Below, in pieces: positions 38,791-62,686 of a stretch of 64,000 bases of DNA. The stretch comes from an uncultured Prevotellaceae bacterium. GTDB lineage: Bacteria > Bacteroidota > Bacteroidia > Bacteroidales > Muribaculaceae. Within the stretch, counting starts at the first letter, position 1. Every line of letters begins with the position of its first letter. The stretch is taken from assembly GCA_900318335.1 (NCBI GenBank), contig ONKF01000001.1:62001-126000 (forward strand), in the 5' to 3' direction. Below the pieces are notes generated by a model. It saw nothing but the letters and a program-made list of their open reading frames with translations, made no database searches and was not told where the DNA came from. A program made the position numbers and the translations under genes.

Positions 38791-39444
38791 TTACTTGATG
38801 TAAGGTTTGATGGCATCGCGCCAGATGAGGTAGCCCTTGCCCATGAGGTGAAGGCCGTCGTTGGTGAGGTCGGCTCGCAGGCGGCCCTGGTCGTCAACAA
38901 ACAAGGGATACAGGTTAATCCAGGTTACACCTTGGCGGCGTGCGACCTGTTCGAGCAGGATATTGGCCTCGACGACGACATGGTCACGGCCCTTGAGTAG
39001 TTTCCACTCGCGCACATCGTTGTTGAATGGCAGCAAGCTCTGGAGATAAATCTTGGTGCGCGGGCTGCCTTGCTTGACCATGACGATGAGGCGCTCGGTC
39101 ACACGGGCGATGCTGTCGGCGGTGACTCCATGGGAGATGTCATTGACTCCGCCCATGATGAACAGCTTCTTGGGCTGACCCTTGATGATGGGGTCGATGC
39201 GGTCGATCAGTCCCTGGACAATGTCGCCAACGATGCCGCGGTTCTTGATATGCCGGTTACCCATCAGTTCGTTGAACTCACAGCCGTCGGTAAGGCTGTT
39301 GCCCAACATAACGATGTCCTTCTTGCCAATGGGCAGCTCGTCGAACAGGGTTGCTCGGCGAACGTAGTACGGGTCCTGATTGGCCTGGGCTACGGCGGTT
39401 AGGGCCATCAGCGCCAGCACGGCTATTATTGCTATTTTTTTCAT
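38791..39444 (-). CDS. Exported SGNH/GDSL hydrolase
   Basis: The 217-residue protein has a signal peptide (MKKIAIIAVLALMALTAVAQ) and all SGNH blocks: GNSLTDG with the catalytic Ser, GIVGD with the block II Gly, GGVNDI with the Asn, and NDGLHLMGKGY with the Asp-His pair. SGNH enzymes in this group are O-acetyl or acyl esterases. Beside murQ and NamZ it might remove O-acetyl groups from muramic acid, which is inference. The ATG at 39444 was chosen because the 30 bases before it hold a perfect hairpin (39461-39481), not coding sequence. It is the last gene before the terminator. Confidence 0.85.
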   Translation of the reverse strand: MKKIAIIAVLALMALTAVAQANQDPYYVRRATLFDELPIGKKDIVMLGNSLTDGCEFNELMGNRHIKNRGIVGDIVQGLIDRIDPIIKGQPKKLFIMGGVNDISHGVTADSIARVTERLIVMVKQGSPRTKIYLQSLLPFNNDVREWKLLKGRDHVVVEANILLEQVARRQGVTWINLYPLFVDDQGRLRADLTNDGLHLMGKGYLIWRDAIKPYIK

Positions 39445-39518
39445 TATTCCTGGTTTACTGTGGTGCGATGGCATCGCACCATACTTAACAATTACTCAGG
39501 CAATTACTACTCATGTAA

Positions 39519-40334
39519 TCACTGGCCCCGAAAGGCGTCTATGGCTTTTTTCACCGAGCCGTGGAGCAGGAGCAGCCGCTTGGCGTCGTCGTAGGGGAGC
39601 TTCAACTCCTCGACGAGCCAGCGGGTACCGCGGTCCACGAGTTTCTGGTTAGTGAGCTGCATATTGACCATCTTGTTGCCCTTGACACGTCCCATTTGTA
39701 TCATCACGCTGGTCGAAATCATGTTGCAGATCATCTTCTGCCCCGTTCCGCTCTTCATGCGGGAACTGCCGGTGACGTACTCCGGCCCTACAATCATCTC
39801 GATGGCTATCTCGGCAGCCTGGCTGACGGGGGCATCAGGATTGCTGGTGATGGCAGCGGTAAGGCACCCATTGGCACGCGCGTCACGCAGAGCACCGATG
39901 ACATAGGGCGTCGTGCCCGATGCGGCGATGCCGATGACAGTATCGAGCGGGGAAACGTTGTACTCCTGCAAGTCCTTCCAGCCCTGCTCGGTGTCATCCT
40001 CGGCATTCTCGACCGCGTTGCGCAGGGCGACGTCGCCACCTGCGATCACGCCGATAATCCACCCTGGCGACATGCCGAATGTGGGCGGTATCTCACTGGC
40101 ATCAAGCACACCGAGCCTGCCGCTGGTGCCCGCACCCATATAGAAGATGCGGCCACCTTTCTTCATACGCTCGACAATGCCCTCGACCAAGCGCTCGATC
40201 TGCGGAATCGTCTGTTGCACCGCATCGGCCACCTTGTGGTCCTCCTGGTTGATTTCGGTGAGAATCTCACGCACCGATTTCTTCTCCAGGTTATCGTATA
40301 GCGACTCTTGTTCGCTGATTTTCACAAATGCCAT
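39519..40334 (-). CDS. murQ: N-acetylmuramic acid 6-phosphate etherase
   Basis: MurQ cleaves the lactyl ether of MurNAc-6-phosphate, giving GlcNAc-6-phosphate and D-lactate, a central step of peptidoglycan recycling in the cytosol. The 271-residue protein has a SIS domain with GAGTSGRLGVLDASE (residues 67-81, catalytic Glu81 in ASEIPP), GGDVALRNAVENAEDD, AASGTTPYV, and the MKSGTGQKMICNMIST segment. Length and motif order are normal, apart from a slightly short C-terminus. It lies between a BadF-type sugar kinase and an SGNH hydrolase on the same strand. Confidence 0.96.
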   Translation of the reverse strand: MAFVKISEQESLYDNLEKKSVREILTEINQEDHKVADAVQQTIPQIERLVEGIVERMKKGGRIFYMGAGTSGRLGVLDASEIPPTFGMSPGWIIGVIAGGDVALRNAVENAEDDTEQGWKDLQEYNVSPLDTVIGIAASGTTPYVIGALRDARANGCLTAAITSNPDAPVSQAAEIAIEMIVGPEYVTGSSRMKSGTGQKMICNMISTSVMIQMGRVKGNKMVNMQLTNQKLVDRGTRWLVEELKLPYDDAKRLLLLHGSVKKAIDAFRGQ

Positions 40335-40410
40335 AATCTTATCAAATTTTTATTCAACTACTATCAGAATGATGTGCGTGCCCACAATGGCACACATCCT
40401 CACGTGGCCA

Positions 40411-41262
40411 TCACACCTCGGCCGAGTGATACTTCACCAGTCCCTCCATCGGGTCCTTGATGATGGTACCGATGGTGATGCCCAGAGCATCGGCAGCCTC
40501 CTTGAGCACCGCCTTCTCGCACAGGGCAATCGATCCCACAAAGTTACAGGGCAGTTCCTTGTAGTTAGGATAGCTGGCCACATTGCGGGTAAAGAAATCA
40601 GTGAACGAGCGCAGCACGATGTTGTGGATCGACGGCTCATCGATGTTATGCTCCAGGAAGGGGGCAAACTGGGCCAGGAAGCGGTTGGCGGCAGGCTTGC
40701 GGTAAACTGAAGTGATGATGGTCGTGTAGTCCAGGTTATACTCCTTCATGAACTTCTCGCACAGGTGCTCGGGCAACTGCTTCTTTAACACATCGCCCAC
40801 AAGCAGCTTGCCCAGCACGGCACCACTGCCCTCATCGCCCAGGATGTAGCCCAAGGGTGAGACATTCATCACCACTTTCTCGCCGTCGTAGTAGCACGAG
40901 TTGCTGCCAGTGCCCAGGATGCAGGCAATGCCCGGCTTGCGCCCGCACACGGCACGCGCAGCGGCCAGCAGATCGCTTGACACCTCGATTTTGGCAGCAC
41001 TGGGCAGGTTGGCACGCAGGGCATTCACCACCTGCTGCTTGATTTCGTCCGAGACGATGCCAGCGCCATAATAGTGGATCTCGTCCACCTTGTAATTGGT
41101 CAGGTGGGGAATCAGCTCGCGCTTGATCTGTTCCTTCATCTCCTCCTCAGTGAGCAGGAGGGCATTCATGCCGGTAGTGAAAATCTGTGCTACCTTTTCT
41201 TTTCCGTTAAGCAGCGTCCAGTTGATCTTGGTGGAGCCGCAGTCAGCAATAAGAATCATCAT
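40411..41262 (-). CDS. BadF/BadG-type N-acetylsugar kinase (MurK/NagK-like)
   Basis: The 283-residue protein has the ASKHA phosphate-1 motif ADCGSTKINW near residues 6-15, with Asp7, then CILGTGSNSCYYDG, GYILGDEGSGAVLGK and a C-terminal NFVGSIA adenosine region. Related bacterial kinases phosphorylate GlcNAc and MurNAc at O6. Its position directly upstream of murQ (76 bases) supports MurNAc-6-phosphate formation. A diverged second copy lies at 55492-56349. Cytosolic. The start has two ATG codons in tandem; I kept the first. Confidence 0.87.
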   Translation of the reverse strand: MMILIADCGSTKINWTLLNGKEKVAQIFTTGMNALLLTEEEMKEQIKRELIPHLTNYKVDEIHYYGAGIVSDEIKQQVVNALRANLPSAAKIEVSSDLLAAARAVCGRKPGIACILGTGSNSCYYDGEKVVMNVSPLGYILGDEGSGAVLGKLLVGDVLKKQLPEHLCEKFMKEYNLDYTTIITSVYRKPAANRFLAQFAPFLEHNIDEPSIHNIVLRSFTDFFTRNVASYPNYKELPCNFVGSIALCEKAVLKEAADALGITIGTIIKDPMEGLVKYHSAEV

Positions 41263-41303
41263 AATATTTGGTTTTTAGTTGTTAGTCCTTAGTTGTTGGG
41301 TGA

Positions 41304-42467
41304 TTATATCTTGATGTAAATTTTCTTCTTGTAGAGCACGTGGCCAATGAGCCAGTTGAGCAGCACAAATGAGATGGCATACAGAAGCGAGGCGGTATAC
41401 TCGTTGCAGAACGACAGGAAGAAGTTATAGACCGCGCTGTGGATGGTGATGTTACCGCCATCGGCATCATGGCCCACGGGAATTGCGCCAAACAGTATCG
41501 CGAGTATCGTCCCTATCAGGTAAAGGGCCAATGGATTGACACCGAAGGTCTCAAAGAAACGCGTCCAGCCGCCCTTCTTGTTGCCCTTGACATCGACAAA
41601 GTGGATCAACATCGCCTGGATGCACATTGCCATGCCGCATGTGATCAGCACAAACGTCGAGGACCACATCTTCTTGCCACAAGGGATGCCATATTGCAGC
41701 AACCAGCCGGCCAGCAGCATCAACGTGCCCCACAGCAGCATCGTGGTCATACGCTCGGTGTTGTTGTGGACACTCAGTATCATGCGGCCCACCAGGTAGC
41801 CGATAAGCACATGGGCGATGCAAGGCAAGGTACTCAGGATGCCCTCGGGGTCAAACGAGATGCTCTCGCCATAGGCAGTCTCGTGGTACATGTGGTCGGT
41901 GCCCAGCACACTGTTGTCAATCTGGGCGATGATGTTGTCGAGCGAGAAGTCATAACCATGTCCCAAGCCCAGAATCAATGCATAGGCCACAAGGATGATG
42001 CCTATGAGCCACGGGATGAACTTGCGGTTAAACAGCACTACGCATAGCGACCCGAACAGATATACCAGCGCCAACCGCTGGAACACGCCCAGATACCGCA
42101 ACGTGTCAATGATATTGACGGCCTCACTGAAGGGGTCTCCCTTGCACAGGCCGCGCACCAGGTGTCCAAACCACTGCACCGCCCAGCCAATGAGGAACAG
42201 GATCACCGCACGGCGAACGATCTTCCACATCAACGGTCCCGATGGCTTGTAATTGAATTTCTTGAACGAGAACGCCATCGACACACCCATACAGAAAACA
42301 AAGAACGGGAACACCAGGTCGGTGGGCGACAACCCTATCCAATCGGCATGCTCCAGCGGCCTGTATATGTAACTCCAGGTGCCGGGGTTATTCACCAGCA
42401 GCATTCCCGCGATGGTGATACCCCGCAGGATGTCAAGTGACAGCAATCGTTTATTCTCTTTAGCCAT
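41304..42467 (-). CDS. NagX-like membrane acetyltransferase (DUF5009)
   Basis: The 387-residue protein has about ten membrane segments and the heparan-alpha-glucosaminide N-acetyltransferase-like pattern: RLLSLDILRGITIAGMLLVNNPG with the conserved Arg-Gly, LSPTDLVFPFFVFCMGVSM, and RYLGVFQRLALVYL. The lysosomal relative acetylates glucosamine ends of heparan; bacterial members in chitin or muropeptide loci (NagX) are linked to amino-sugar use. It could acetylate de-N-acetylated wall sugars so that they enter the MurK/MurQ route. The ATG at 42467 (MAKENKRLLSLD) was chosen; the open frame upstream has no membrane signal and reaches into NamZ. Confidence 0.85.
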   Translation of the reverse strand: MAKENKRLLSLDILRGITIAGMLLVNNPGTWSYIYRPLEHADWIGLSPTDLVFPFFVFCMGVSMAFSFKKFNYKPSGPLMWKIVRRAVILFLIGWAVQWFGHLVRGLCKGDPFSEAVNIIDTLRYLGVFQRLALVYLFGSLCVVLFNRKFIPWLIGIILVAYALILGLGHGYDFSLDNIIAQIDNSVLGTDHMYHETAYGESISFDPEGILSTLPCIAHVLIGYLVGRMILSVHNNTERMTTMLLWGTLMLLAGWLLQYGIPCGKKMWSSTFVLITCGMAMCIQAMLIHFVDVKGNKKGGWTRFFETFGVNPLALYLIGTILAILFGAIPVGHDADGGNITIHSAVYNFFLSFCNEYTASLLYAISFVLLNWLIGHVLYKKKIYIKI

Positions 42468-42511
42468 AATCTTTATATTTTGGGACAAAAGAACCGTCCC
42501 TTTGTCCCGTT

Positions 42512-43765
42512 TTAGTGATAGAGGTAGTATTTTGCGGAACGGGTGCGGAAGGCTTCGACGTCCTTGTTCCAGTAGTCGGCGATGTCCTCGACGAGGTAGC
42601 GCCTGATGAAACGCTCGCGGATTTCCTTTGAGCCGCACACCTTGTCGAACATGGCATAACGCTTGGGATTCTGCTCAAACAGTTCCACCTGGGGGTACAT
42701 CTCATGGATGACCTGCAGGAAGTAAAACTGTGTCATGCACAGGTTGGCGGCATCGATGTCGGTGATATAGGTCTGGACCCCATGCACCTCCTGCAACGAC
42801 TTGTCCACCGCTACACTCAAGGCAAAGAACGGCTTGTAGTTGATGGGCCTGAATTGCATGCCGGGCAGGTTCAGGGCATTCATCTTCATTGCAAGCGAGT
42901 CGGCATTGATCCACGATGCGGCAAACGTCTGGAATGGCAACGTGTAGCCGATGCCAGTGTTAAAAATGTACAGCTCACCCAAGATGCCAGACACGGGATA
43001 GAAAAATGCGCTCTCGGGGGTCGGAATCTGGGGTGAAGGAGCTACCCAAGGCATACCCGTCTCACGGAACTGCATATCGCGTGTCCACCCCTCCATCGGG
43101 ACGACGGTCAGTTTGCACTTGCGGCCGGTCTTGGACTCCTGGCCGATGATACCCTCCTCGTTGAGGAAAGTGGCCAGCTCGCCAGGGGTCAAGCCATAGA
43201 TATAGGGGATGGCATACTTGCTCACAAACGAGAAATAGCCCGGCTCCACGAGATTGCCCTCAATCTTGTTACCACCCAGCGGATTAGGACGGTCCAGCAC
43301 CATGAATTCGGTGCCGTATTTAGCACAGGCCTGCATGCACACACCCATCGTGGCATAGAACGTGTAGCTGCGGCAACCCACATCCTGTATGTCATAAATG
43401 AGCACATCAATATCCTTGAGCATCTCGGCCGTGGGCTCATGGGTCTTGCCGAAGAGCGAATACATCTTGATACCGGTAATGGGGTCCACTGCGTCGCCCA
43501 CGGCATCGCCAGCATGGGCATTGCCACGCACGCCGTGCTCGGGACCGAACAGCGCCACGAGTTGCACACCAGGTGCTTCGTTGAGGATGTCAACGGTACT
43601 CTTGAGGTTGTTATCGATGCCACTTGGGTTGGTCACCAGTCCCACGCGCTTGCCCTGCAACGGCGCGAATCCGCCGTCACGCAGTACCTCGACACCCGGC
43701 TTTACAACGGCCCCAGCCGTCACTGCCGCCATCATCATACACACTACAAATAATATCTTCTTCAT
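42512..43765 (-). CDS. namZ: NamZ-like exo-beta-N-acetylmuramidase (DUF1343)
   Basis: NamZ (GH171) removes single MurNAc residues from the non-reducing end of peptidoglycan glycans. The 417-residue protein has a signal peptide (MKKILFVVCMMMAAVTAGA) and the DUF1343 pattern: KRVGLVTNPSGID, ALFGPEHGVRG (GPEHG at residues 74-78), VDVLIYDIQDVGCRSYTF-like strand, DRPNPLGG, and FTPESAFFYPV-type segments. The GPEHG Glu is the expected catalytic acid. The ATG at 43765 gives the signal peptide at the N-terminus; an ATG at 43789 would overlap ampG. It lies 10 bases after ampG. Confidence 0.9.
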   Translation of the reverse strand: MKKILFVVCMMMAAVTAGAVVKPGVEVLRDGGFAPLQGKRVGLVTNPSGIDNNLKSTVDILNEAPGVQLVALFGPEHGVRGNAHAGDAVGDAVDPITGIKMYSLFGKTHEPTAEMLKDIDVLIYDIQDVGCRSYTFYATMGVCMQACAKYGTEFMVLDRPNPLGGNKIEGNLVEPGYFSFVSKYAIPYIYGLTPGELATFLNEEGIIGQESKTGRKCKLTVVPMEGWTRDMQFRETGMPWVAPSPQIPTPESAFFYPVSGILGELYIFNTGIGYTLPFQTFAASWINADSLAMKMNALNLPGMQFRPINYKPFFALSVAVDKSLQEVHGVQTYITDIDAANLCMTQFYFLQVIHEMYPQVELFEQNPKRYAMFDKVCGSKEIRERFIRRYLVEDIADYWNKDVEAFRTRSAKYYLYH

Positions 43766-43775
43766 CGCTTTTCCA

Positions 43776-45110
43776 TTATTTAAGGCCATAATCAGGGTCT
43801 ATCTTGCGGTCAACAAAGAAAGTCACCGCAATCGTTGCAATACTGCAGGCAAACGACAGCCAGAAGAAAGCAGCATATCCCATCGACTCCTGCAAGAAGC
43901 CGGCAAACATACCGGGAATCATCATGCTCAACGACATGAACGCAGTGCAGATGGCATAGTGTGAGGTTTTGAACTCGCCCTCCGAGAAATACATCATGTA
44001 CAGCATATAGGCCGTGAAACCGAATCCGTAGCCGAATTGCTCAATGATGATGCAGATGGCAATCACATAGAAATTGACAGGCAACTGCATCGACAGATAT
44101 ACGAATGTGAGACAAGGCAAAGTCATGCAGGCAGCCATCCACCACAGGGCTTTCTTCAAGCCCACCTTAGAGGAGAAAATACCACCCAGGATGCCACCGG
44201 CAAGCAAGGCTGCCACACCCAGCGTGCCATAAGCCAGTCCCACCTCCTGGGTCGTCATGGCCAAGCCTCCCTTGTCCGAGGGGTCGAGCAGGAAAGGCTT
44301 GCACATCTTCAGCAGGAACGCCTCGGGCAGACGGTAGAGCAGCATGAAAGCAATAGCCAACCATACACCCGGCTTGGTGAAGTAGGTGGCGATGGTACGT
44401 CCGAACTCTGACATGACGGCAGAACTATTAGACTTGAACGAGCCCTCAATCGAGGATTTATCGCTTGCGGGACGGGGAATGATAAAGATGTGATAAATCG
44501 AGAACAGGCACAGGATGGCAGCCGCTATGGCCATGGTCACCTTCCACGCCTGTGGAATTGAGGTCTTGGTCTCCAGGTAGCCGGCAATCCACACGAGAAC
44601 GCCATTACCGAAGATGTTGGCCAATCGGTAGAACGTCGAACGCACGCCGACAAAAGCTGACTGGTTCTTCTGCGACAATGCCAGCATATAGAAGCCATCG
44701 GCAGCAATGTCATGCGTCGCGCTGGCAAAGGCCGTGATGATGAAGAATATCAGCGTCACTGTGAACATGCTGATGGGGGTAGTTCCCGCCTGTATCATCG
44801 CCTCGCCCGGTGACGGCAACGTGATGGTGAGCAGGATTAGCGTTATCGCCATAACAATCTGCATGGTCGTGATCCACCAGCGTTTTTTCTTGATGATGTC
44901 CACAAAGGGGCTCCACAACGGCTTGATCACCCACGGCAGATAGATCAGACTGGTAAACAAGGCCATCTGTCCATTGGGAACACCCATCTTCTTGAACAGG
45001 ATCACCGAAATCTCGTTCACGAGGAAATAGGGGATGCCCTCGATAAAATACAACGTGGAGATCCACAACCACGGATTCCTCTTGTTGGATTCAACCTCAA
45101 CTTCTTTCAT
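43776..45110 (-). CDS. ampG: AmpG-like muropeptide permease (MFS)
   Basis: The 444-residue protein has 12-14 membrane segments and the AmpG pattern: LYFIEGIPYFLVNEI at the N-terminus, LIYLPWVIKPLWSPFVD, and ASATHDIAADGFYMLAL. AmpG imports GlcNAc-anhydroMurNAc or MurNAc-type fragments. In Tannerella, a related transporter is tied to MurNAc scavenging. It sits between NamZ (10 bases downstream) and SpoIID, which fits release followed by import. The C-terminal membrane half is complete. Confidence 0.88.
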   Translation of the reverse strand: MKEVEVESNKRNPWLWISTLYFIEGIPYFLVNEISVILFKKMGVPNGQMALFTSLIYLPWVIKPLWSPFVDIIKKKRWWITTMQIVMAITLILLTITLPSPGEAMIQAGTTPISMFTVTLIFFIITAFASATHDIAADGFYMLALSQKNQSAFVGVRSTFYRLANIFGNGVLVWIAGYLETKTSIPQAWKVTMAIAAAILCLFSIYHIFIIPRPASDKSSIEGSFKSNSSAVMSEFGRTIATYFTKPGVWLAIAFMLLYRLPEAFLLKMCKPFLLDPSDKGGLAMTTQEVGLAYGTLGVAALLAGGILGGIFSSKVGLKKALWWMAACMTLPCLTFVYLSMQLPVNFYVIAICIIIEQFGYGFGFTAYMLYMMYFSEGEFKTSHYAICTAFMSLSMMIPGMFAGFLQESMGYAAFFWLSFACSIATIAVTFFVDRKIDPDYGLK

Positions 45111-45164
45111 ATCATTAGTTTTTTAATTGTTATTCTTATCAGGACCTTAGGGTCTTTAAGGACA

Positions 45165-46499
45165 TTAGTATCGTTTCTCGATGGTGGCGCCCACGAAGTA
45201 GTGCAGCAGGATCTGCTTGTAGTCAAATCCCTTGGCACCCATCACGGCGGCACCAATTTGGCACAAGCCCACACCATGGCCCCACCCTGCCCCGCGCAGC
45301 ACAAACTTGGCGGGATAGCCGTCGTCGCCGATTTGGTGCTTCTCGACGACAAAGGCCGAGCTGTACAGGCACGAGGGCGACAAGGCATATCGAATGGTCA
45401 GCTCCTTGCCGATGATGCGTTCACGCTTCTCACCGACGATGCGCAGGCGGTACAAGCGGCCGCTGGTGCCACGGGCCACGGGCTGCAGGTCACGGATGCG
45501 GCCATAATCGATACCAGTGCGCTCCTTGATTAATGCCGAGAGCTCGTCTTGGGTATATTCCACCTTCCAGCGGTAGAAATCCTTGGTCTCCTGGTCGTAG
45601 TCGTTGAGCACCTGGGAGAGGATTTCGGGGTCGGTGGTGTTGCAGTAAGCGCTGGGGCTGGAAAGAATCCACTCGGCGGCGTTATCCTCGAGGGACAGGT
45701 CGGGGAAGTCCTCCTCGTCCTTGCCGTCGCGGCGCGCCTCCAGATAGTCGTGGTGATGTGGCTCCCAGCAATTCTCAAACTCCTCCATCACGCCACCGCA
45801 TGACTTGGAAAAGCGGGCGTCACACAACGCGCCGCCATGCATCAGCACTTGACCCCATGTGGCACCGACGGCTTGCTCTACTTTCTCGGTTGTGGCGCGG
45901 GTGATACCTTGATAGCGCTGGCAGTGGTCATCGGCACACACGTCAAAGTTCACATGGTCATCACGGTCCCACCACTTGACCTGTTCCTCGGGGGTATCCT
46001 TCATCTCGCCTTCACCATGTGGATTGCGTTCTATGGGCTTGACGGTCTCCTCGGTATGGATCTGGGCCAGCAGCCAGCTGCGGGAGATGACAGCATGCGC
46101 CTTCAGCAGTTCCAGCGAGGCGTTGGCGCTCATCTCGCTGGAGATGACGCTCAGCAGATAATCCTCAACGCTCAGCACGTTGATAGGCGTCAACCGCCCG
46201 TTCTCGACAATCAGGTGCAGCGCGCCCTTGAAGGTCTGGTCCTCCTGGCGCTTCCAGTGGAAACTCACGCCGATGGTCACCGCCTTGAGCGTGAACGAGG
46301 CTCCTTGAGCATCGACAGGCTCAAACATCAACTCGCCATAGCGTTTGCCGTTCCACTCTACCTGTCCATCAGCACAGCGTGCCGTTTGGCTTCCGCTACA
46401 CGTGGCACCATTCACGCGGTAGTCACCATTGAGCACAAACTCAACTTGAGGCTCATTCATGATGCCCACCCTCACTTGCGGTATCTGTTTTTCGTCCAT
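45165..46499 (-). CDS. SpoIID/LytB-domain protein without visible signal peptide
   Basis: The 444-residue protein contains a SpoIID/LytB domain: INVLSVEDYLLSVISSEM with the conserved Glu122, LLKAHAVISRSWLLAQ, SKSCGGVMEE, and RGAGWGHGVGLCQIGAA near the C-terminus. SpoIID-type lytic transglycosylases or amidase enhancers act on denuded glycan strands. The start MDEKQIPQVRVGIM has no signal peptide or membrane segment, so its location is unclear; it may be cytosolic and act on imported fragments, or be exported in another way. It lies 54 bases upstream of ampG. Confidence 0.85.
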   Translation of the reverse strand: MDEKQIPQVRVGIMNEPQVEFVLNGDYRVNGATCSGSQTARCADGQVEWNGKRYGELMFEPVDAQGASFTLKAVTIGVSFHWKRQEDQTFKGALHLIVENGRLTPINVLSVEDYLLSVISSEMSANASLELLKAHAVISRSWLLAQIHTEETVKPIERNPHGEGEMKDTPEEQVKWWDRDDHVNFDVCADDHCQRYQGITRATTEKVEQAVGATWGQVLMHGGALCDARFSKSCGGVMEEFENCWEPHHHDYLEARRDGKDEEDFPDLSLEDNAAEWILSSPSAYCNTTDPEILSQVLNDYDQETKDFYRWKVEYTQDELSALIKERTGIDYGRIRDLQPVARGTSGRLYRLRIVGEKRERIIGKELTIRYALSPSCLYSSAFVVEKHQIGDDGYPAKFVLRGAGWGHGVGLCQIGAAVMGAKGFDYKQILLHYFVGATIEKRY

Positions 46500-46569
46500 A
46501 TTATCAATTATTTATTCTCTATACCATAAACTCTAAACTTCCAATTTGCGGATTAATTCTCAAATTGGA

Positions 46570-47529: not shown

Positions 47530-47575
47530 CAACTGTCCTCCCGATATGCAGTGAAAAACATTAAAAATCTAAAGC

Positions 47576-55491: not shown

Positions 55492-56349
55492 TCAGGTTTG
55501 GTCGCTGTGGTAGGCGACAAGGCCGGGCATGGAGCTGAGGACGATTTTGCGGACCGTGGCGCCAAAGTTGCTGGCTACCTCAAGCAGGATTTCACTGTAG
55601 GTCGTCGCGATGGGACCGACGAAATTGACGGGGATACTCTTGTAGTCATACTGGCACACGTTGCGCTCAAAGAAGCGCTTGAACTCGCCAGCAATCAGGT
55701 CGTGGACATACTGGCTATCCAGATGCTCGCTCAGGAAGAACGAGTAGGATCGCAGGTTGCGCGTTGCGGCAGGATTGTTGAGCACGGCATCGAGCACCTC
55801 GGCGGGTGTCACTTTGTATTTATCAAAGAAAGCCTCGGTCAGCACCTTGGGGGCAAGCCCCTTGAGGGCATCGCCCAAGAACACGCGGCCCAGCGCGGCA
55901 CCGCTGCCCTCATCACCCAGGATAAAGCCCAGGGCAGGAACATTCTTGACAATCTCCTTGCCGTTATACAGGCACGAGTTGCTTCCCGTGCCCAGGATGC
56001 ACGCCAGTCCGGGCTCGCGCACGAGCAGACCGCGCGCGGCTCCCAGCAGGTCACTCATCACCGTCACCGGGGTCTTGAACTGGGCCACCAGCGAGGATTC
56101 GATAATCTTGTTCTTCTCGGGACCCGAGCAGCCTGCACCATAGAAGTAAACATGGCTCCAACGGCGCTTAAAGAATTCGGGGGGTAATTCCAAGCGTATG
56201 CTATGACTGATCTCGCGACGAGTCATGAAAAACGGGTTTAGACCCTGGGTATAGGCATGCTCCAACACTTCACCGCCATCAATCAATGACCACTCGGTGC
56301 GCGTCGTGCTGCTCTCGGCTATCAGGGTTACGTTTTGACCTTTAATCAT
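55492..56349 (-). CDS. BadF/BadG-type kinase, diverged second copy
   Basis: The 285-residue protein is a paralogue of the kinase at 40411-41262: CILGTGSNSCLYNG, GFILGDEGSGAALGR and NFVGPIA are shared. The phosphate-1 motif reads AESSTTRTEW (Glu12) in place of ADCGSTKINW (Asp7), so the metal-binding Asp is changed to Glu and the glycine is lost. It may have altered substrate or activity, or act as a sensor. A possible -7 box (TAATTTTG) lies at 56427-56434 on the minus strand. The 135-base gap downstream leads to the MG2/plug gene. Confidence 0.83.
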   Translation of the reverse strand: MIKGQNVTLIAESSTTRTEWSLIDGGEVLEHAYTQGLNPFFMTRREISHSIRLELPPEFFKRRWSHVYFYGAGCSGPEKNKIIESSLVAQFKTPVTVMSDLLGAARGLLVREPGLACILGTGSNSCLYNGKEIVKNVPALGFILGDEGSGAALGRVFLGDALKGLAPKVLTEAFFDKYKVTPAEVLDAVLNNPAATRNLRSYSFFLSEHLDSQYVHDLIAGEFKRFFERNVCQYDYKSIPVNFVGPIATTYSEILLEVASNFGATVRKIVLSSMPGLVAYHSDQT

Positions 56350-56689
56350 TCTTATTATTCAGTTAACGAATGTACCTTTCTGTTAATTTATCGTTAAAAT
56401 CAATTCGCGCTTCATTTTTGCGCCTACAAAATTATGCAAAATACCGCTCCCAGCCGACAATCTATCAATTTAATTCCGAAAATAAACATAAATTTAACAT
56501 ACAGTCACACTTATTAACTATTATACCAATAAGACTGGCTATACTCCCAGATTAAAGTATGAAAGTTTGAGGTCAATGGATAAAGAAGACATCCGCACTC
56601 CAATAGGAATGCGGATGTCTTGATATTGCGGGTCCTTACGGACAATACGCTACTTATAACGCCTTTGACGGCATGAGACTTGGCTGAGT
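56350..56689. other. 340-base AT-rich gap between kinase and Hsp20 genes
   Basis: No coding frame is supported. It contains a minus-strand -7-like box (56427-56434) for the kinase and a 12-bp perfect hairpin (56586-56621) behind hsp20. Confidence 0.5.
56586..56621 (-). terminator. Candidate terminator after hsp20
   Basis: AAGACATCCGCA (56586-56597) pairs perfectly with TGCGGATGTCTT (56610-56621). On the minus strand it is followed by CTTTATCC, a weak T tract, so this is a candidate only. Confidence 0.5.
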
Positions 56690-57142
56690 TTAGGCGATGT
56701 CGATGACGCGGTCCATCTTCTTCTCGGGCTCGGGAGCGATCTTGGGGAGTTCAATGCTCAGGATGCCGTCCTCGACCTTGGCGCTGATGTGCTCCTTGTC
56801 CACCTCGTCGGGCAGGATGTAGGTCTGCTCATAGTTGGTGTAAGAGAACTCACGGCGCACATAGTGGAACTTAGCGCCCTCTTCCTCGCCGGACTTGTCC
56901 TCGTGCTCGGCCTTGTTCTCGATCTTGACAACCAGGTTGCCCTCGTTATTGATGTTGACCTTGCAGAACTCCTTCTTCAGGCCCGGTGCGGCGACTTCCA
57001 TGGTGAAAGCGGTGTCGTTCTCCTTGACGTTGACTGCGGGAGCGGTGGTCACATGGCGCGGGGTCCAATCCATGTCAAACAGGTCGTTGAATGCGGTGTC
57101 TAACCAGTTGTTGCGGTTGTTGCGAATTACAGGAAAATACAT
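56690..57142 (-). CDS. Small heat-shock protein, Hsp20/alpha-crystallin family
   Basis: The 150-residue protein has an alpha-crystallin domain at about residues 35-140: APAVNVKENDTAFTMEVAAPG, KVNINNEGNLVVKIENK, EFSYTNYEQTYILPDEVD, and KVEDGILSIELPKI with the family signature. Hsp20 proteins are ATP-independent holdases that bind unfolded proteins in the cytosol. No CIRCE element or consensus -7 box was seen in the 278-base upstream gap. Its place within the wall cluster may be accidental; it is bounded by its own candidate terminator and by the upstream terminator. Confidence 0.93.
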   Translation of the reverse strand: MYFPVIRNNRNNWLDTAFNDLFDMDWTPRHVTTAPAVNVKENDTAFTMEVAAPGLKKEFCKVNINNEGNLVVKIENKAEHEDKSGEEEGAKFHYVRREFSYTNYEQTYILPDEVDKEHISAKVEDGILSIELPKIAPEPEKKMDRVIDIA

Positions 57143-57310: not shown

Positions 57311-57355
57311 TTAGCAAAAATTAAACAAGAAACTGACAAAATGTCAGTTTCTTGT
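57311..57355 (-). terminator. Rho-independent terminator after the T9SS amidase gene
   Basis: A perfect 14-bp stem (57325-57338/57342-57355; ACAAGAAACTGACA and its complement) with a three-base loop is followed on the minus strand by TTTAATTTTTG. It is about 65 bases past the amidase stop. A half-site TGTCAGTTT recurs at 57301-57309. Confidence 0.78.
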
Positions 57356-57372
57356 TATAAAAGGCTATATTT

Positions 57373-57414: not shown

Positions 57415-57420
57415 GGGTTT

Positions 57421-59847
57421 CTACTTGATGGCGACCTTCTGGGTGGTGGTGCGGCCGTTGATGTGGACGCGCACGAGATAGATGCCCGGCTCGACGTCTG
57501 CAACATTGAGGCAGTTACCACCAGCGGCTTTGACATTGCGGCCATTGATATCCAGCAGTTCCAGGCCCTGCACCCAGGTGTCGGCGCTCACGACGATATA
57601 GTCATCGTTGACGGTCAACTGCATGTTGGCCAGGCGAGCCTCATCAACGCCTGAAGACGCCTTCTTGAGCAGGTTGTCGAACTTGATTGTGCCTCCGTTC
57701 TTGCCCATTAGCGGATGGTAGAGTCTTATAGTAAAACCATACAACTGGAATGTGCTGTCAGCCGGCAGGTCAAGAGGAATTTCCAGATAACGCCAGCCGT
57801 GGAAATTGATCTCGCCTAATTCAATTGGCCACACGTATGAATAGCCATCGTAAGGAGTACTGAGAAGAATGACACTTGGAATATTGTAACTCATGTCTCC
57901 CCACACGTGGATACACAATGTGTCGCCGCGCGAAAACTTCACAACCGGAGCCTCATCAAACTTGAAACCTTGACTCCTGCCGGTTTCCACATCAAAGTCA
58001 AACTCATAGTCAAACTGCAGCGATTTGTTGCCGAACAGCCTGTCGGTCGAGGCGGTGATTTCAGATCCAGTGTAGTATGTGATAGGATCTACCATAACAC
58101 TGAAGCCGTCGGTGCTTTCAAAGCCTTCAACGACCTCCATGCCGGGCTTGTCGGCTCCGGCGTCAACGCCCTGGAAGACGATGTCGCGGGCCGCGGGCAG
58201 GTGGATGCCGGCGGTGTCGGCGATGTCAACGTCGAGGATGAGGTGGTAGTCCTTGCCGGGCTCGATGTCCTTGACGAGCGGGACACGGATGTAGCCGTAG
58301 TCGTCGCCCTTCTTGTTATACTTGATGCTGCGCTTGTTCCAAGCCAACTCGGTGCCCTCACTGTCGAGCACACGCAGGCGCTGGAACAGGTTATAGGTAT
58401 CGAGCATCGAGTCCACACGCAGTTCGACGGTGGGTGTCTTGTAATGGACCTGTGCGCCCTCGTAGGGGAATACGGCCAATTCTTCCAGATGGTTGCGCTT
58501 TTGGGTGTAGAACTGCATCACGAAGTCTTCCTCCATGGGCGTGCCACCGCCATGCTCGGCGCTCTTGTCGAGCGTGAGGGTGTAGAGGGTGTTCACGTCA
58601 AAGGCATCGGTTGGCGTGAACACGAGGCGGTAATAGGAGTCCTGCCACTCGAAGGTGCCCTCCACTGGCGGGTCAAGGCGGAAGGCGTTGCACGTCGTCT
58701 CGTCGTCCATGTCCCAGTTGAAGGTGAGCGTGATGGGCGTGCTGCACTTCACGGCGGGATCGCCCTCGTGCCACACGGGGCTATAGTCCACGACCACGGG
58801 AGGCGTGTCACGCACGCGCTTGAGGAAGAAGTTCTGATAGGTCGGCGCGTTGGCGCTGACGGTCACCTGGGCCGTCTGGGTAAAGTGCTTGGGCGAACTC
58901 ACCTCGACGGTATAGGTACCGGGGTTGACATACTTGAACACGTAGATGCCGTTCCTGAGGGTGTCGGTCACACAGCGCTGCACCTCGTTGCCGCCCGCGT
59001 CGAGCAGGCGAACGGTAGCGTCGTGGATGGGCATCAGGTTGTCGTCGCCATAGACGATGAAGGGCTGCGGATTTTCCTGCAGGCGCTTGATGCGGTCGTC
59101 ACGCACGTTGCCCGTCACGACACCCTGCCCGAAGTTGTCCAGCCGATTGAAATACTTGTCGGCACCAAGCGAGATGTTCCATCCCTCCATCCAGCAGTAG
59201 TAGAAGCTGAGCAGGCGGTAGGCCTCGGGGATATAGTCGTGGAAGGAGCCCTCACTCAGGTTGGCGACGGCACGGTTGCCACGCAGCACACCATAACCCT
59301 GGGTGCCCCACTCGGGACGGAACGACCAGTCGCCCCAGATCTGGTAGTTGTGGGTCCACACCGTATTCTGGCTGGCATACAGGTAAGGCTCCAGGTCGGC
59401 AGCCAGCACGTCGGCATTGGCGACCTGAGGACTGCCCGTGTAGCCACGGTAGAATACCATCGGGAAGTTGTTCACCGCACTGGTGCCCGTGGCGTTGCTG
59501 TGGATTGAGTAGAAGACGTCGGCGCCGCTCTGGTTGCACAGGGCGACGATGGTCGAGAGCGCCAGGTCATCGGCAGTGGTGTTGGTCACACGCGAGATGC
59601 TGGTCTTGTAGCCCTTCTTCTCGAGGATTTCCTTCAGGGCAAGGCCCTTGCGCAGGTTGGACTTGCTCTCCCATGAGCCGGCGCTGTCGCCCTGGGTAAA
59701 GGGATAGATGACCATGTTGCGGTCGTCGCTGTCATAGCCGCCATGACCGGGATTGATATACACGTGGGGCTGCTGGGCACTTACCACATTTACAGTGAAC
59801 ACTGCCAGCAGTGCCATCATCGATAATTGGAGTAATGACTTTTTCAT
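57421..59847 (-). CDS. Secreted N-acetylmuramoyl-L-alanine amidase with T9SS tail
   Basis: The 808-residue protein has a signal peptide ending at VSAQ. An Amidase_3 domain follows at about residues 27-225 with metal ligands His35 (INPGHGG), Glu60 (WESKSN) and His116 (SIHSNA), and catalytic Glu199 (SEGSFHD). A carboxypeptidase-regulatory-like domain (about 265-340), an Ig-like domain (PVWHEGDPAVKCSTPITLTF) and a carbohydrate-binding-type beta-domain (about 590-730) come next. The C-terminus (LLDINGRNVK...GIYLVRVHINGRTTTQKVAIK) is a type A T9SS signal. It should cleave the MurNAc-L-Ala bond at the cell surface or outside. It lies 14 bases after the propeller gene at 59862. Confidence 0.9.
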   Translation of the reverse strand: MKKSLLQLSMMALLAVFTVNVVSAQQPHVYINPGHGGYDSDDRNMVIYPFTQGDSAGSWESKSNLRKGLALKEILEKKGYKTSISRVTNTTADDLALSTIVALCNQSGADVFYSIHSNATGTSAVNNFPMVFYRGYTGSPQVANADVLAADLEPYLYASQNTVWTHNYQIWGDWSFRPEWGTQGYGVLRGNRAVANLSEGSFHDYIPEAYRLLSFYYCWMEGWNISLGADKYFNRLDNFGQGVVTGNVRDDRIKRLQENPQPFIVYGDDNLMPIHDATVRLLDAGGNEVQRCVTDTLRNGIYVFKYVNPGTYTVEVSSPKHFTQTAQVTVSANAPTYQNFFLKRVRDTPPVVVDYSPVWHEGDPAVKCSTPITLTFNWDMDDETTCNAFRLDPPVEGTFEWQDSYYRLVFTPTDAFDVNTLYTLTLDKSAEHGGGTPMEEDFVMQFYTQKRNHLEELAVFPYEGAQVHYKTPTVELRVDSMLDTYNLFQRLRVLDSEGTELAWNKRSIKYNKKGDDYGYIRVPLVKDIEPGKDYHLILDVDIADTAGIHLPAARDIVFQGVDAGADKPGMEVVEGFESTDGFSVMVDPITYYTGSEITASTDRLFGNKSLQFDYEFDFDVETGRSQGFKFDEAPVVKFSRGDTLCIHVWGDMSYNIPSVILLSTPYDGYSYVWPIELGEINFHGWRYLEIPLDLPADSTFQLYGFTIRLYHPLMGKNGGTIKFDNLLKKASSGVDEARLANMQLTVNDDYIVVSADTWVQGLELLDINGRNVKAAGGNCLNVADVEPGIYLVRVHINGRTTTQKVAIK

Positions 59848-59861
59848 GACAAGCTGGTGTT

Positions 59862-60701
59862 TTATTCGTAAATGTTGATTTCCATCTCATAGAGCAGACC
59901 GTCGATGGTTGTATAGACGATCTTGCCGCCCCCGCATGTGGGTTGCATCGTCATCGAGGCGGGCTTGGTCAGTTCAGTCTGCCAGGTGCCGTCGGCCTTG
60001 AGCAGCAGCAGTTGGGACGAAGTGAACTGATGGCCATCGTCCTTGGCATTCTGAGCCACGATGTAGTTGTTGTTATACCAGCACGGCATTTCATAGTTAC
60101 CCAGCATGGCAACCACCTGACCGCGCAGGTCAATGACCACAATGCCCTTGCCAGCAGCAAAGAAGGCCACACGCTGCCCGTCGGGCGAAAGCGAGGCCCA
60201 CAAGTAACCCGCCCATGAGTCCACGGGGCTGAAGACGCGCTCCTCGCCACCCACGGTGACATGGACGCGGCTGCCCTCGGTCCACGCGGCATCGCCCTGC
60301 TCAGCAGGCACGGCACGCATGGCGCCATGGCGCGTCGGCGTGACGACGTTGGCCTTGCGGGTCTTTGCGTCATAGCACTGGCCCGTGCGATAGACCAGAT
60401 GGTCCTCCCCCACCGACTGAGTCACAAAATACACCTTGCCGTCGCGGCCGAAGCAGGCATCGCGGCCCGCCACATAGTCCTGGGTGACCACGGTGGTCAC
60501 GCCGTCGGCAAAATCATGCAACTTGAGGGCACCGCCCTCGGTTGTGAACAGCAGTCGTTCGCCCGCGTTATCGAGCACGGGGTAATAGGCGGGTCCCTCC
60601 ACGCCCTCGAGCAACCGCTGGCGAGAGACCACTTCCACCTCCTGGGCCATCACGGGCAGCATCACCACCGCCGCCAGCATCACAATCAACATTCTCTTCA
60701 T
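59862..60701 (-). CDS. Exported TolB-like beta-propeller protein
   Basis: The 279-residue protein has a signal peptide ending at VMAQ and a series of propeller blades: GKVYFVTQ, LVYRTGQCYD, GYLWASLSPDGQRVAFFA, EMPCWYNNNYIVAQ. It is homologous over its length to the N-terminal half of the propeller-amidase fusion at 60749, where the same words occur in the same order. No catalytic site is seen. It probably binds wall fragments or its amidase partner in the periplasm or outside. It is located between the two amidase genes with short gaps (47 and 14 bases), so all three are co-transcribed. Confidence 0.87.
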   Translation of the reverse strand: MKRMLIVMLAAVVMLPVMAQEVEVVSRQRLLEGVEGPAYYPVLDNAGERLLFTTEGGALKLHDFADGVTTVVTQDYVAGRDACFGRDGKVYFVTQSVGEDHLVYRTGQCYDAKTRKANVVTPTRHGAMRAVPAEQGDAAWTEGSRVHVTVGGEERVFSPVDSWAGYLWASLSPDGQRVAFFAAGKGIVVIDLRGQVVAMLGNYEMPCWYNNNYIVAQNAKDDGHQFTSSQLLLLKADGTWQTELTKPASMTMQPTCGGGKIVYTTIDGLLYEMEINIYE

Positions 60702-60748
60702 CTCACTATTCTTTATTTATTTCACTTTCACACAAAAAAAACTAAAAA

Positions 60749-62686
60749 CTACCTTTTAGGCTTCTGATTCTTGGAAATCTTCAGGTTCTTATAAGCCGTC
60801 TGGCCCTTTTTCACCTTGACCTTGGCTGTCTGGTACAGGTCATCCTTGCCGTAGTACAGCTCCAACTTGTACTTGTCGGGGGGCAGGTTGGTGAACACAA
60901 ACACTCCGTTGTCCTGGTTATCGACCGTATAGACACGGCTGAGGGCACCAGCCCCATTATACAGGCGCACCAAGGCCCCGTTGATGGGCATCAGCTTGTC
61001 CTCGTCAAACACGCGCTTGTCCTCGTCAACGCGATTGATGTCCGACCAGCGCACCGTACCGGCAATCACGCTGTTGGCATACCGGCCCTTGCGGCCGAAG
61101 TACTCGTCCATCGCCAGGGACTGGTTCCAGGCCTCCAGCCAGCAATAGTTGTTGCTCAGCAGGCGTTCGCGTTCGGGCAGGTAGTCGTGGAACGAGCCCT
61201 CGCTCAACATGCCAGGCAGCTTGTTGAACCGCAGCACGCCCAGTCCCACCTTGTAACCCCAGTCATAGAACGACCAGTCACCGTTGCTGCGCTCCTTGTT
61301 GGTCCACACAGCCAGCGCGTTCTTGACGGCATATTTCATCACCAGATTGCTCAACTTGAGGCTCCCCTCGACAACGGGTTCCCCGTCCCAGCCGCGGTAC
61401 AGTGCCAGCGGGAAGTTCAGGCGCTTCTCGACACCCGTGGCGTTGCTGTGGATCGAGAAAAAGATATCGGCACCGCTGTTGGCGGCCAGCGAAACGATTT
61501 CAAACAGGTCCAGGTCATCCTCGGTCGTGTTGGTCTTGCGCGAGATGGCGGTCTCATAGCCCTTGTTAGTGAGGATTTCTACCAGGGCGAGGCCCTTGGT
61601 CAGATTTGAGTTGGATTCATAGTAGTGTATCGTGTCCTGGCGCCCGATGACCCACGTGGGCACGTGGCGGTCGTCGCTGTCATGGCCGCCGTGGCCGGGG
61701 TTGATGAACACGCGGGGCACATCCTTGCGGCTGACGGGGTCCTTCACTTTCTCGGTCTTGCCCTTGCCAGTGGCCGCGGGGGCAGGCATCGCCGGGGCGA
61801 TGTCCAGCTCCAGTTGACGCACCTCGCCGCTGTAGAGCAGCGAGTAAACCACCTTGCCGCCTGCCGTCATGGGCTGCACTGCGCGCTCGTCACGGCCCGA
61901 GATGGGCTTGCACACCTCGCCATCGACCGACAGCAGCCAGATGCGCGACCCGCTGGTGCGCACGTTACCCGCATTGCTCATGGCGATGATGTAATCGTCG
62001 TTATACCAGCTGGGCATGAGGAACTCACCCAGGTCACTGACAATCTCCCCGTTCAGGTCACACACGAACAGTCCGCGCGAGGCGGCCTCAAACATGACAC
62101 GGGTGCCGTCGGGCGACATCGCCGCCCACAGGTAGCCGTTGCTGTCGGTGACGGGCTGCAAGACTCGCGTCGTGCCTGCCTCATCAACCAGATAGAGTTT
62201 GTCGCCGCGGGTGTAACAGTAGGCACCCACCTGCTTGGCGTTACGGTACACCTGGCGCTCGCCATTGATCACCACTCCCCGGGCGGCATGCAGGGGCTGC
62301 ACGCGCCCGTGCTGGGCCTTGAGCACGACCTTGTCCTTGCCGGTGACAGGGTCATAGCAGTGTCCCGTGCGGTAAACCAGGCCGTTTTTCTTGCGCTGCT
62401 GGGTCACGTAATACACCTTGCCGTCCTGCCCGATGATGGCGTCAAATCCGGGATAACCCTTGCTGGCCACCGTCTTCACCACGCCTGTCGAAAGGTTCTT
62501 CAACATCAGGCTGGTCCCCTCGGTGGGCGAGTAGAGCAGCCACTGCCCGTCGGCACTGATCTGCGGGAAAAAGCCGCAACTGTCCACTTGGGTCCGCACA
62601 CTGCCTGTCTTCACGCCCACTGCGCCAGCGACAAATGCCCACAGGCAAGCCAGCGCTATTGTCATGTAGAGTCTATTCATGCTCAT
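60749..62686 (-). CDS. Fused beta-propeller / N-acetylmuramoyl-L-alanine amidase
   Basis: The 645-residue protein joins a signal peptide, a TolB-like propeller (about residues 30-300; GKVYYVTQ, LVYRTGHCYD, GYLWAAMSPDGTRVMF), a Pro/Ala/Lys-rich linker (about 298-325), and an Amidase_3 domain with His332 (INPGHGG), Glu357 (YYESNS), His413 (SIHSNA) and Glu496 (SEGSFHD). A C-terminal carboxypeptidase-like domain follows (GVFVFTNLPPDKYKLELYYG), ending in a Lys-rich tail, with no T9SS signal. It should cut the MurNAc-L-Ala bond in the periplasm. It is the first gene of the unit 62686-57421; a -7 box (TACCTTTG, 62713-62720) lies 27 bases upstream. Confidence 0.9.
   Translation of the reverse strand: MSMNRLYMTIALACLWAFVAGAVGVKTGSVRTQVDSCGFFPQISADGQWLLYSPTEGTSLMLKNLSTGVVKTVASKGYPGFDAIIGQDGKVYYVTQQRKKNGLVYRTGHCYDPVTGKDKVVLKAQHGRVQPLHAARGVVINGERQVYRNAKQVGAYCYTRGDKLYLVDEAGTTRVLQPVTDSNGYLWAAMSPDGTRVMFEAASRGLFVCDLNGEIVSDLGEFLMPSWYNDDYIIAMSNAGNVRTSGSRIWLLSVDGEVCKPISGRDERAVQPMTAGGKVVYSLLYSGEVRQLELDIAPAMPAPAATGKGKTEKVKDPVSRKDVPRVFINPGHGGHDSDDRHVPTWVIGRQDTIHYYESNSNLTKGLALVEILTNKGYETAISRKTNTTEDDLDLFEIVSLAANSGADIFFSIHSNATGVEKRLNFPLALYRGWDGEPVVEGSLKLSNLVMKYAVKNALAVWTNKERSNGDWSFYDWGYKVGLGVLRFNKLPGMLSEGSFHDYLPERERLLSNNYCWLEAWNQSLAMDEYFGRKGRYANSVIAGTVRWSDINRVDEDKRVFDEDKLMPINGALVRLYNGAGALSRVYTVDNQDNGVFVFTNLPPDKYKLELYYGKDDLYQTAKVKVKKGQTAYKNLKISKNQKPKR

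Follow-up and report, generated by a model that had tools for sequence, protein, structure and literature searches.

We analyzed a 64,000-nucleotide stretch of DNA (hereafter the window) from an uncultured Prevotellaceae bacterium (contig ONKF01000001.1), in which 16 genes at 38791-62686, all on the minus strand, belong mostly to peptidoglycan-related families according to open reading frame (ORF) calls and family profile searches. Comparison of sequences indicates that the conserved unit is a ten-gene run at 38791-52176 (Golv, GT2, DUF4922, SpoIID, AmpG, NamZ, NagX-like, MurK, MurQ, and GDSL genes), which is shorter than 24 kb. The locus belongs to a type already described, the peptidoglycan-salvage operon of Tannerella forsythia; its arrangement, which a preliminary description of this DNA set apart from functions established in other bacteria, is already known, since the published genes Tanf_08345-08385 of T. 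forsythia stand in the same order. What is new here and open to testing is a cytosolic triad formed by GT2, DUF4922, and a SpoIID protein without signal peptide (SpoIIDcyt), and these three genes, which had been left vague or called exported before, are the most interesting part of the locus. We propose, with chances that we put only slightly short of even, that the run corresponds to the T. forsythia operon and that the triad processes in the cytosol the disaccharides of N-acetylglucosamine (GlcNAc) and N-acetylmuramic acid (MurNAc) or 1,6-anhydro-MurNAc (anhMurNAc) imported by AmpG. Most likely, it is a cytosolic unit that acts between AmpG and MurK/MurQ.

Co-occurrence, location, and predicted folds of the triad

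The three genes lie next to each other on the minus strand: GT2 at 47576-49060 (494 amino acids, two GT-A-like halves; PF00535, E 1.3e-19), DUF4922 at 46570-47529 (a predicted member of the HIT/GalT superfamily of diadenosine tetraphosphate (Ap4A) phosphorylase or GDP-L-galactose phosphorylase (GGP) type; PF16269, 203 bits), and SpoIIDcyt at 45165-46499 (444 amino acids, a SpoIID-domain protein of lytic-transglycosylase type; PF08486, E 2e-23, 83 bits; TIGR02669, 163 bits). In an order-level sample of 149 genomes, DUF4922 was detected in 36 and SpoIIDcyt (profile score above 200 bits) in 37, namely the same 36 plus genome G096; in a phylum-level sample of 296 genomes, the respective numbers were 41 and 40, all 40 being shared and G371 being the extra DUF4922 genome. 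This co-occurrence holds though the two genes are often located on different contigs. GT2 was sought in 80 genomes, comprising 38 DUF4922 carriers from another class of the phylum and 42 non-carriers (37 further first-listed genomes were left out), and was present in 37 of the carriers (the exception being G304) and in none of the non-carriers. Gene fusions link the same partners: GT2 is fused to DUF4922 in L058, L060, L061, L117, L123 (Bacteroides xylanisolvens XB1A), and L124, DUF4922 is fused to SpoIID in L052, L059, and L064 (three families of the order sample) as well as in nine named loci, and a triple fusion, interrupted by a contig end, is found in L057.

The genomic neighborhoods were examined in three sets. 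Within 6 kb of DUF4922 in 35 fetched loci of the order sample (the 36th DUF4922 genome being the window's own), we found GT2 in 29, AmpG in 25, SpoIID in 23, MurK in 15, NamZ in 13, K2-like kinases in 9, MurQ in 8, Golv in 6, and NagX in 3, indicating that the outer salvage genes are often located elsewhere in this sample. In addition, 80 named loci were picked by GT2 similarity, of which 62 extend 6.5 kb or more past GT2 and 47 extend 9.9 kb or more ahead of it. Within 9.5 kb downstream of GT2 in the former 62, AmpG was present in 58, SpoIID in 54, DUF4922 in 50, NamZ in 50, MurK in 39, NagX in 38, and MurQ in 21, where far genes may drop off the fetched end. The preliminary description had named scattered genes without co-occurrence as the sign of a false grouping, and the core genes show the opposite. 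For the other class, 20 stretches from 19 of the 38 carriers were inspected, most of which were chosen because SpoIIDcyt and DUF4922 are close to each other. The order GT2-DUF4922-SpoIID-AmpG recurs there in families f132 and f148 (L247-L249 and L251-L253; L250 is ended by a contig end), AmpG is present in 9 of the 20 stretches, and the neighboring kinases in L247, L248, and L253 are BadF/NagK-like in a scan. Downstream of SpoIIDcyt in L254-L260 and L263 of the same class lies a gene of approximately 370 codons, and the three products scanned (L254, L259, and L263) are GT4 glycosyltransferases. Two GT2 copies in succession precede DUF4922 in L072, L075, and L078.

SpoIID had previously been counted as a further exported enzyme, which the sequences contradict: SpoIIDcyt appears to lack a signal peptide, and a cytosolic location is very likely. 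The window protein begins with MDEKQIPQVRVGIM, and aligned relatives begin alike. Using a home-made, start-independent leader test (any start up to 60 codons upstream was allowed; it is not a trained predictor and misses 6 of 20 exported controls), we detected a leader-like stretch in 1 of 65 and 0 of 16 SpoIIDcyt relatives, that is, in 1 of 81, and in 1 of 63 and 0 of 19 DUF4922 proteins. On the same named loci, 55 of 60 NamZ and 43 of 46 Golv proteins passed, as did one of two NamZ proteins from the other class. Ordinary SpoIID proteins from 20 non-carrier genomes served as a control, 14 of which passed, and the other six look leader-bearing by eye, L276 least clearly. A looser first threshold flagged 8 of 65 and 4 of 16 SpoIIDcyt proteins, which we ascribe to a conserved strand near the start (P-x-I-x-VGI is visible). 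A simple catalytic-Glu pattern is present in all 81 relatives and an H-C-H-C pattern in 78 of them, and SpoIIDcyt matches the SpoIID structures 4rwr, 5i1t, and 5txu. In Clostridioides difficile SpoIID, E101, C140, and H145 are reported to be required for in vitro activity, and the enzyme to act only after amidase action (PMC6221140); residues of the window protein appear to match these three in a weak alignment. A chlamydial SpoIID has been reported as both a lytic transglycosylase and a muramidase (PMC9928106).

Structure models were compared for the other two members. The AlphaFold model of DUF4922 (built without the first Met) has a mean predicted local distance difference test (pLDDT) score of 93.7, and its best Foldseek match is the yeast Ap4A phosphorylase Apa2 (E 7.5e-10, template modeling (TM) score 0.56), followed by plant GalT-like/ADP-glucose phosphorylase; the DUF4922 profile also matches Apa2 (4i5t) by sequence (E 1.4e-6). 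An HxHxQ motif is present in 81 of 82 DUF4922 relatives, and the predicted fold together with this motif places DUF4922 in the HIT/GalT superfamily, with a predicted phosphorylase type. One plant GGP group has been assigned to the DUF4922 superfamily (PMC9871823). For GT2 (pLDDT 87.9), the best match is the two-domain glycosyltransferase K4 chondroitin polymerase of Escherichia coli (E 9.4e-21), with a whole-chain TM score of only 0.40, suggesting that the two halves are arranged differently. GT2 contains an LDSDD motif in the C-terminal half and LYTKHD at a similar place in the N-terminal half, and DSDD is found in 98 of 99 relatives.

From the order and co-occurrence of the genes, their fusions, the missing signal peptides, the conserved motifs, and the predicted folds, we infer the following scheme, including every reaction of the triad. 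Exported Golv and amidases, together with NamZ, would degrade wall material, and AmpG would bring GlcNAc-anhMurNAc and GlcNAc-MurNAc into the cell. GT2, DUF4922, and SpoIIDcyt would then process the imported disaccharides as a joint enzyme unit, between import and MurK, and could be of use in genomes that have neither AnmK nor a leaderless NagZ. SpoIIDcyt may attack the C1 side of MurNAc, either by muramidase-like hydrolysis or by a reversed lytic-transglycosylase reaction, which would open the 1,6-anhydro ring. GT2 may swap the GlcNAc unit with the nucleoside diphosphate (NDP) pool and DUF4922 may phosphorolyze the resulting NDP-sugar to a sugar-1-phosphate, so that both together would carry out a nucleotide-catalyzed, ATP-saving phosphorolysis. 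Finally, MurK and MurQ would convert MurNAc to GlcNAc-6-phosphate. The triad may be a missing step in the reuse of imported wall fragments. It provides three named genes to test, gives DUF4922 a functional context, and corrects the likely location of SpoIID; moreover, muropeptide handling by Bacteroidales bears on which wall fragments reach the host. In publications judged by title and the opening of the abstract, we found none on a cytosolic SpoIID/DUF4922/GT2 unit.

Anhydro sugars and alternative explanations

In the order sample, AnmK was detected in 98 of 149 genomes, including 4 of 37 SpoIIDcyt carriers (no match in the other 33) versus 94 of 112 other genomes (Fisher's exact test, raw p 7e-16); in the phylum sample, it was detected in 15 of 40 carriers versus 191 of 256 others (raw p 9e-6). 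No AnmK match was found in the window genome, whose six GH3 matches all carry a leader, including two with the motif KHFPGHG, which we take to be NagZ-type. A FastTree phylogeny of rpoB was built for 100 genomes of the order (all 37 carriers, 48 of the 94 genomes with AnmK only, and 15 of the 18 with neither), in which each of the two labels changes 12 times and most AnmK-less carriers fall into one clade. On its supported branches, nine independent pairs could be drawn, which on average gave 2.4 contrasts of opposite type, 0.1 of the same type, and 6.5 without difference (sign test, median p 0.5); for this test to reach 0.05, six or more pairs that differ in AnmK would be required. Loss of AnmK and presence of the triad are hence associated and not exclusive, and phylogeny may explain the association. 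A strict rule that the triad replaces AnmK was rejected, since shared ancestry is possible as judged from the rpoB pairs and since 15 of the 40 phylum-sample carriers as well as Bacteroides ihuae keep AnmK. In the rpoB gene of the window genome (G000:C53:671-4334), the first ~50 positions are separated by a stop from a 1211-amino-acid open frame, perhaps due to a sequence error.

An explanation that we consider possible, if on the doubtful side, is that the triad serves cell-wall sugar metabolism unrelated to anhydro sugars and that the AnmK deficit was inherited within one clade. The concentration of AnmK-less carriers in one rpoB clade, the non-significant independent pairs, and the AnmK-retaining carriers (B. 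ihuae among them) agree with it, whereas the few contrasts that exist run in the predicted direction (about 2.4 versus 0.1), G371, the sole genome with GT2 and DUF4922 and without SpoIIDcyt, has AnmK, and T. forsythia, for which no AnmK is predicted, makes use of GlcNAc-anhMurNAc sources (PMC7670621). Alternatively, the triad could make or remodel a cytosolic glycan or glycoconjugate (a capsule, a protein glycan, or a storage polymer), with DUF4922 controlling the NDP-sugar pool, GT2 polymerizing, and SpoIIDcyt trimming, its place in the operon reflecting a shared sugar supply rather than muropeptide breakdown. The closeness of GT2 to chondroitin polymerase in both profile and fold, the GT4 glycosyltransferase following SpoIIDcyt in the three scanned loci of families f152 and f134, and the earlier designation of the T. 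forsythia operon as glycosylation-related (PMC5388701) favor such a role, which we regard as rather unlikely. Against it, 25 of 35 order-sample loci have AmpG no more than 6 kb from DUF4922, AmpG also occurs in 9 of 20 loci of the other class (mostly selected for closeness of SpoIIDcyt and DUF4922), and NamZ, MurK-type kinases, or a NagZ-type GH3 often adjoin the triad.

Very improbable is the view implied by the preliminary description, in which SpoIID would be an ordinary periplasmic lytic transglycosylase acting on amidase-denuded strands and exported without a classical signal, with DUF4922 and GT2 as passengers. Its conserved catalytic-Glu and metal-ligand patterns would fit that role, as would the exported amidases nearby, given the dependence of C. 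difficile SpoIID on prior amidase action (PMC6221140). However, a leader is absent from 80 of 81 relatives and present in most of the NamZ and Golv proteins encoded at these loci, fusions of SpoIID to a HIT-fold protein exist in nine named loci and in three order-sample families, and SpoIID co-occurs with DUF4922 even across contigs.

Returning to the proposal that the triad processes AmpG-imported disaccharides, several observations weigh against it. Four of 37 order-sample and 15 of 40 phylum-sample carriers have AnmK alongside the triad, and B. ihuae, included as a control, has DUF4922, AnmK, and the whole locus (L085); the independent rpoB pairs gave no significant contrast. GT2 in the order sample was looked for only beside DUF4922 (29 of 35 loci). 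In f152 and f134 loci, SpoIIDcyt adjoins the GT4 transferase and not AmpG. In three Prevotella/Hoylesella loci (L089, L133, and L137), Golv-GT2-AmpG-NamZ-NagX-MurK-MurQ is intact and DUF4922 and SpoIID are absent from the locus, an absence that refers to the locus and not to the rest of those genomes. Genome G371 encodes NamZ-AmpG-GT2-DUF4922 together with a leaderless NagZ-type GH3 at L266 and has AnmK, without SpoIIDcyt; because it carries all of these, GT2 plus DUF4922 does not look like a simple replacement of NagZ. The absences in the source genome should be read in view of its completeness of 92.9%, and we know of no activity for any triad member. The more ambitious version of the proposal, that the triad constitutes an unrecognized cytosolic pathway for AmpG-imported fragments, able to operate without AnmK and NagZ and proceeding via ring opening and nucleotide-catalyzed phosphorolysis in many Bacteroidales families and a second class, seems unlikely to us.

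Gene content and extent of the locus

The preliminary description had recognized about fifteen same-strand peptidoglycan genes in a 24-kb locus. This observation was largely right, except that SpoIID was wrongly located, that relatives do not show the full extent, and that T. forsythia already has the arrangement. The salvage functions it named, i.e., NamZ, an AmpG-like permease, a NagX-like protein, two MurK-type kinases, and MurQ, are all represented by sequence matches, AmpG and NagX being below the formal cut-offs. Downstream of the triad, the putative muropeptide importer of the major facilitator superfamily (43776-45110, minus strand, 444 amino acids; PF07690, E 7.7e-18) scores 183 bits with TIGR00901, whose cut-off is 350, and we call it AmpG because it resembles the T. 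forsythia permease and is syntenic with it, not as a formal family member. AmpG-like proteins of approximately 620-630 amino acids in three relatives (L115:12409-14271, L121:11443-13335, and L032:10769-12643) have a soluble-looking insert of approximately 190 amino acids between the N- and C-terminal halves, for which no convincing Pfam family was found; the window AmpG has no such insert. NamZ (42512-43789, minus strand), a predicted exported exo-N-acetylmuramidase, has all features sought, namely NamZ_N and NamZ_C domains (PF07075, E 4.7e-84, 281 bits; PF20732, E 4.2e-35) and a leader, and matches PDB 4k05 (E 1.6e-149); its presence alone says little because nearly all genomes of the order sample have NamZ (138 of 149).

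The NagX/HGSNAT-like membrane protein (41304-42467, minus strand) gave 126 bits with NF046061, far under the cut-off of 480, and no Pfam family at E 0.001; its mechanical ORF extends to 42638, and the start at MAKENKRLL (42467) was chosen. We take NagX to belong to DUF5009, for which Pfam gave no match. According to a 2025 paper (PMC12423673), no DUF5009 protein function had been experimentally confirmed, and for both reasons a role as acetyltransferase is only putative. K1 (40411-41262, minus strand) is a predicted MurK-type MurNAc 6-kinase (phmmer to T. forsythia MurK 8oqw, E 6.5e-94, 317 bits, versus 215 bits to K1058), and MurQ (39519-40334, minus strand) is a predicted MurNAc-6-phosphate etherase (TIGR00274, 311.6 bits, above the cut-off of 302). 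Strong MurQ matches (above 160 bits) were found in 19 of 36 DUF4922 genomes versus 11 of 113 others in the order sample. An exported GDSL/SGNH hydrolase, possibly an O-acetyl esterase, ends the run (38791-39474, minus strand; PF13472, E 3.7e-21; leader), and a MatE-like gene adjoins this end at 36827-38491 (24 bits, cut-off 24.9), perhaps as part of a neighboring polysaccharide cluster.

Golv (49135-52176, minus strand), the first gene of the run, encodes an exported protein of 1013 amino acids with an N-terminal leader, a Golvesin_C domain (PF25275, E 6e-23), and a weak Amidase_3 match (PF01520, 23 bits, under the curated cut-off of 27). Of the three exported amidases announced before, Golv is therefore tentative, while Ami2 (57421-59847, minus strand; PF01520, 45.8 bits) and Ami3 (60749-62686, minus strand; PF01520, 48.2 bits) are clear Amidase_3 proteins and putative accessory enzymes of the locus. 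The export by the type IX secretion system (T9SS) mentioned before agrees with Ami2, at whose C-terminus a T9SS type A sorting domain was matched (TIGR04183, 34.2 bits, cut-off 23). A fusion of a propeller to an amidase had also been described: an N-terminal module is indeed fused to Amidase_3 in Ami3 and has a stand-alone homolog in the exported 279-amino-acid protein encoded at 59862-60701 (minus strand; 38% identity over 269 amino acids to Ami3 34-296), consistent with duplication, fusion, or fission of one module, and no profile identified this common module as a propeller. Between this amidase block and the core lie genes for an MG2-domain exported protein (52717-55356, minus strand; PF01835, E 2.3e-9), the kinase K2 (55492-56349, minus strand; closest to T. 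forsythia K1058, 8oqk/8ow7, 331 bits versus 230 to MurK), and an HSP20 small heat-shock protein (56690-57142, minus strand; PF00011, E 4.1e-19).

The ten core genes are tightly packed from 52176 to 38791 with gaps of at most 76 bp (taking the NagX start at 42467), and gaps of 540, 135, 340, and 278 bp separate MG2, K2, HSP20, and the amidase block beyond. Using a consensus that we take to be of Bacteroidetes type (TTG...TAnnTTTG), we found promoter-like motifs on the minus strand upstream of Golv (52412-52446) and K2 (56427-56460), as motif matches only, and a strong terminator-like hairpin with a 15-pair stem and a T-rich tail lies 3' of the Ami2 gene (57324-57356, minus strand). Accordingly spaced signals had been announced at 52.4, 57.3, and 62.7 kb, the first two of which have these counterparts, and near 62.7 kb only a -7-like motif was seen; overall, scans for sigma-70 promoters and terminators gave no excess over shuffled sequence. 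The short gaps from Golv to GDSL and the promoter-like motif at 52.4 kb are consistent with a single transcript.

Among the 47 named loci that reach far enough before GT2, Golv was present in 34, K2 in 19, Ami2 in 11, HSP20 in 4, and MG2 in 3. Ami3 was found in 4, its distance of 11.7 kb from GT2 in the window exceeding the 10-kb flanks, and at least one of Ami2, the 279-amino-acid gene, and Ami3 was found in 13; these amidase-block counts are lower bounds since the genes are 8.4-13.6 kb from GT2 in the window, near or past the fetched flank ends. MG2 and HSP20 are within reach of the flanks yet rare, and thus are probably lineage-specific bystanders. The nearest named contigs by GT2 (first 13 rows) share 81-94% identity and are metagenome-assembled genomes titled mainly Prevotellaceae, Muribaculaceae, or Bacteroidales. 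That the whole 24 kb forms a dedicated peptidoglycan utilization locus with the logic of a polysaccharide utilization locus, as the preliminary description had it, is improbable in our view. All genes are on one strand, several exported amidases are present, and the near relatives L067-L071 keep most of the gene order within the fetched stretch. Against it, no protein among the 16 matched a family of the defining SusC/SusD pair (E 0.001). The region is also divided by separate promoter- and terminator-like signals and by gaps of 540, 340, and 278 bp, and MG2 and HSP20 are rare in relatives.

Comparison with Tannerella forsythia and other known systems

The operon Tanf_08345-08385 of T. forsythia comprises xanthan lyase, gtf, gtf, lytB, ampG, ybbC, murT, murK, and murQ genes; according to the same report, Tanf_08345 through murQ form one GppX-controlled transcript by reverse transcription PCR, and earlier work had called the operon glycosylation-related (PMC5388701). 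By published annotation, the first nine genes of the window run follow this order on one strand (Golv-GT2-DUF4922-SpoIID-AmpG-NamZ-x-MurK-MurQ), Golv being the positional counterpart of the Tanf_08345 'xanthan lyase'; for Golv, GT2, DUF4922, and SpoIID, the comparison rests on that annotation and on position. In the figure legend of PMC5388701, the DUF4922 position is printed as a glycosyltransferase and the SpoIID position as an amidase enhancer. The closest solved relatives of K1 and K2 are T. forsythia MurK and K1058, and both K1058 and K2 are located upstream of the cluster; K1058 binds MurNAc and turns it over poorly, and its authors assume that MurNAc is not its natural substrate (PMC10465942). 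At the murT position, between namZ and murK, the window has a NagX-like gene, and beyond the T. forsythia gene set it has extra exported amidases, MG2, HSP20, and GDSL genes. AmpG of T. forsythia imports GlcNAc-anhMurNAc and GlcNAc-MurNAc, is induced on peptidoglycan, and is required for proper growth on it (PMC7670621). This species, without a predicted AnmK, grows on sources consisting mainly of GlcNAc-anhMurNAc; its growth is weaker there than on GlcNAc-MurNAc and is poor on free anhMurNAc, whose fate is left open by the authors (PMC7670621).

The window shares AmpG-type import and a MurNAc-6-phosphate etherase with the AmpG-NagZ-AnmK-MurQ recycling of E. coli, whereas its genome has no AnmK match and its NagZ-type GH3 proteins carry leaders. 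To our knowledge, the GT2-DUF4922-SpoIIDcyt triad has no counterpart in E. coli recycling. DUF4922 appears to share the HIT-superfamily fold and HxHxQ with Apa2 (its best structural match), plant GDP-L-galactose phosphorylase, and ADP-glucose phosphorylase, but is only 16-18% identical to Apa2 chains (TM 0.54-0.60) and is conserved together with GT2 and SpoIIDcyt. SpoIIDcyt has the SpoIID domain, the catalytic-Glu region, the H-C-H-C metal pattern as in C. difficile, and the C-terminal GHGVG motif of the SpoIID lytic transglycosylases (4rwr, 5i1t, and 5txu), and differs from these enzymes in having no apparent export signal, in its length of 444 amino acids, and in its association with DUF4922 and GT2 through fusion or joint encoding.

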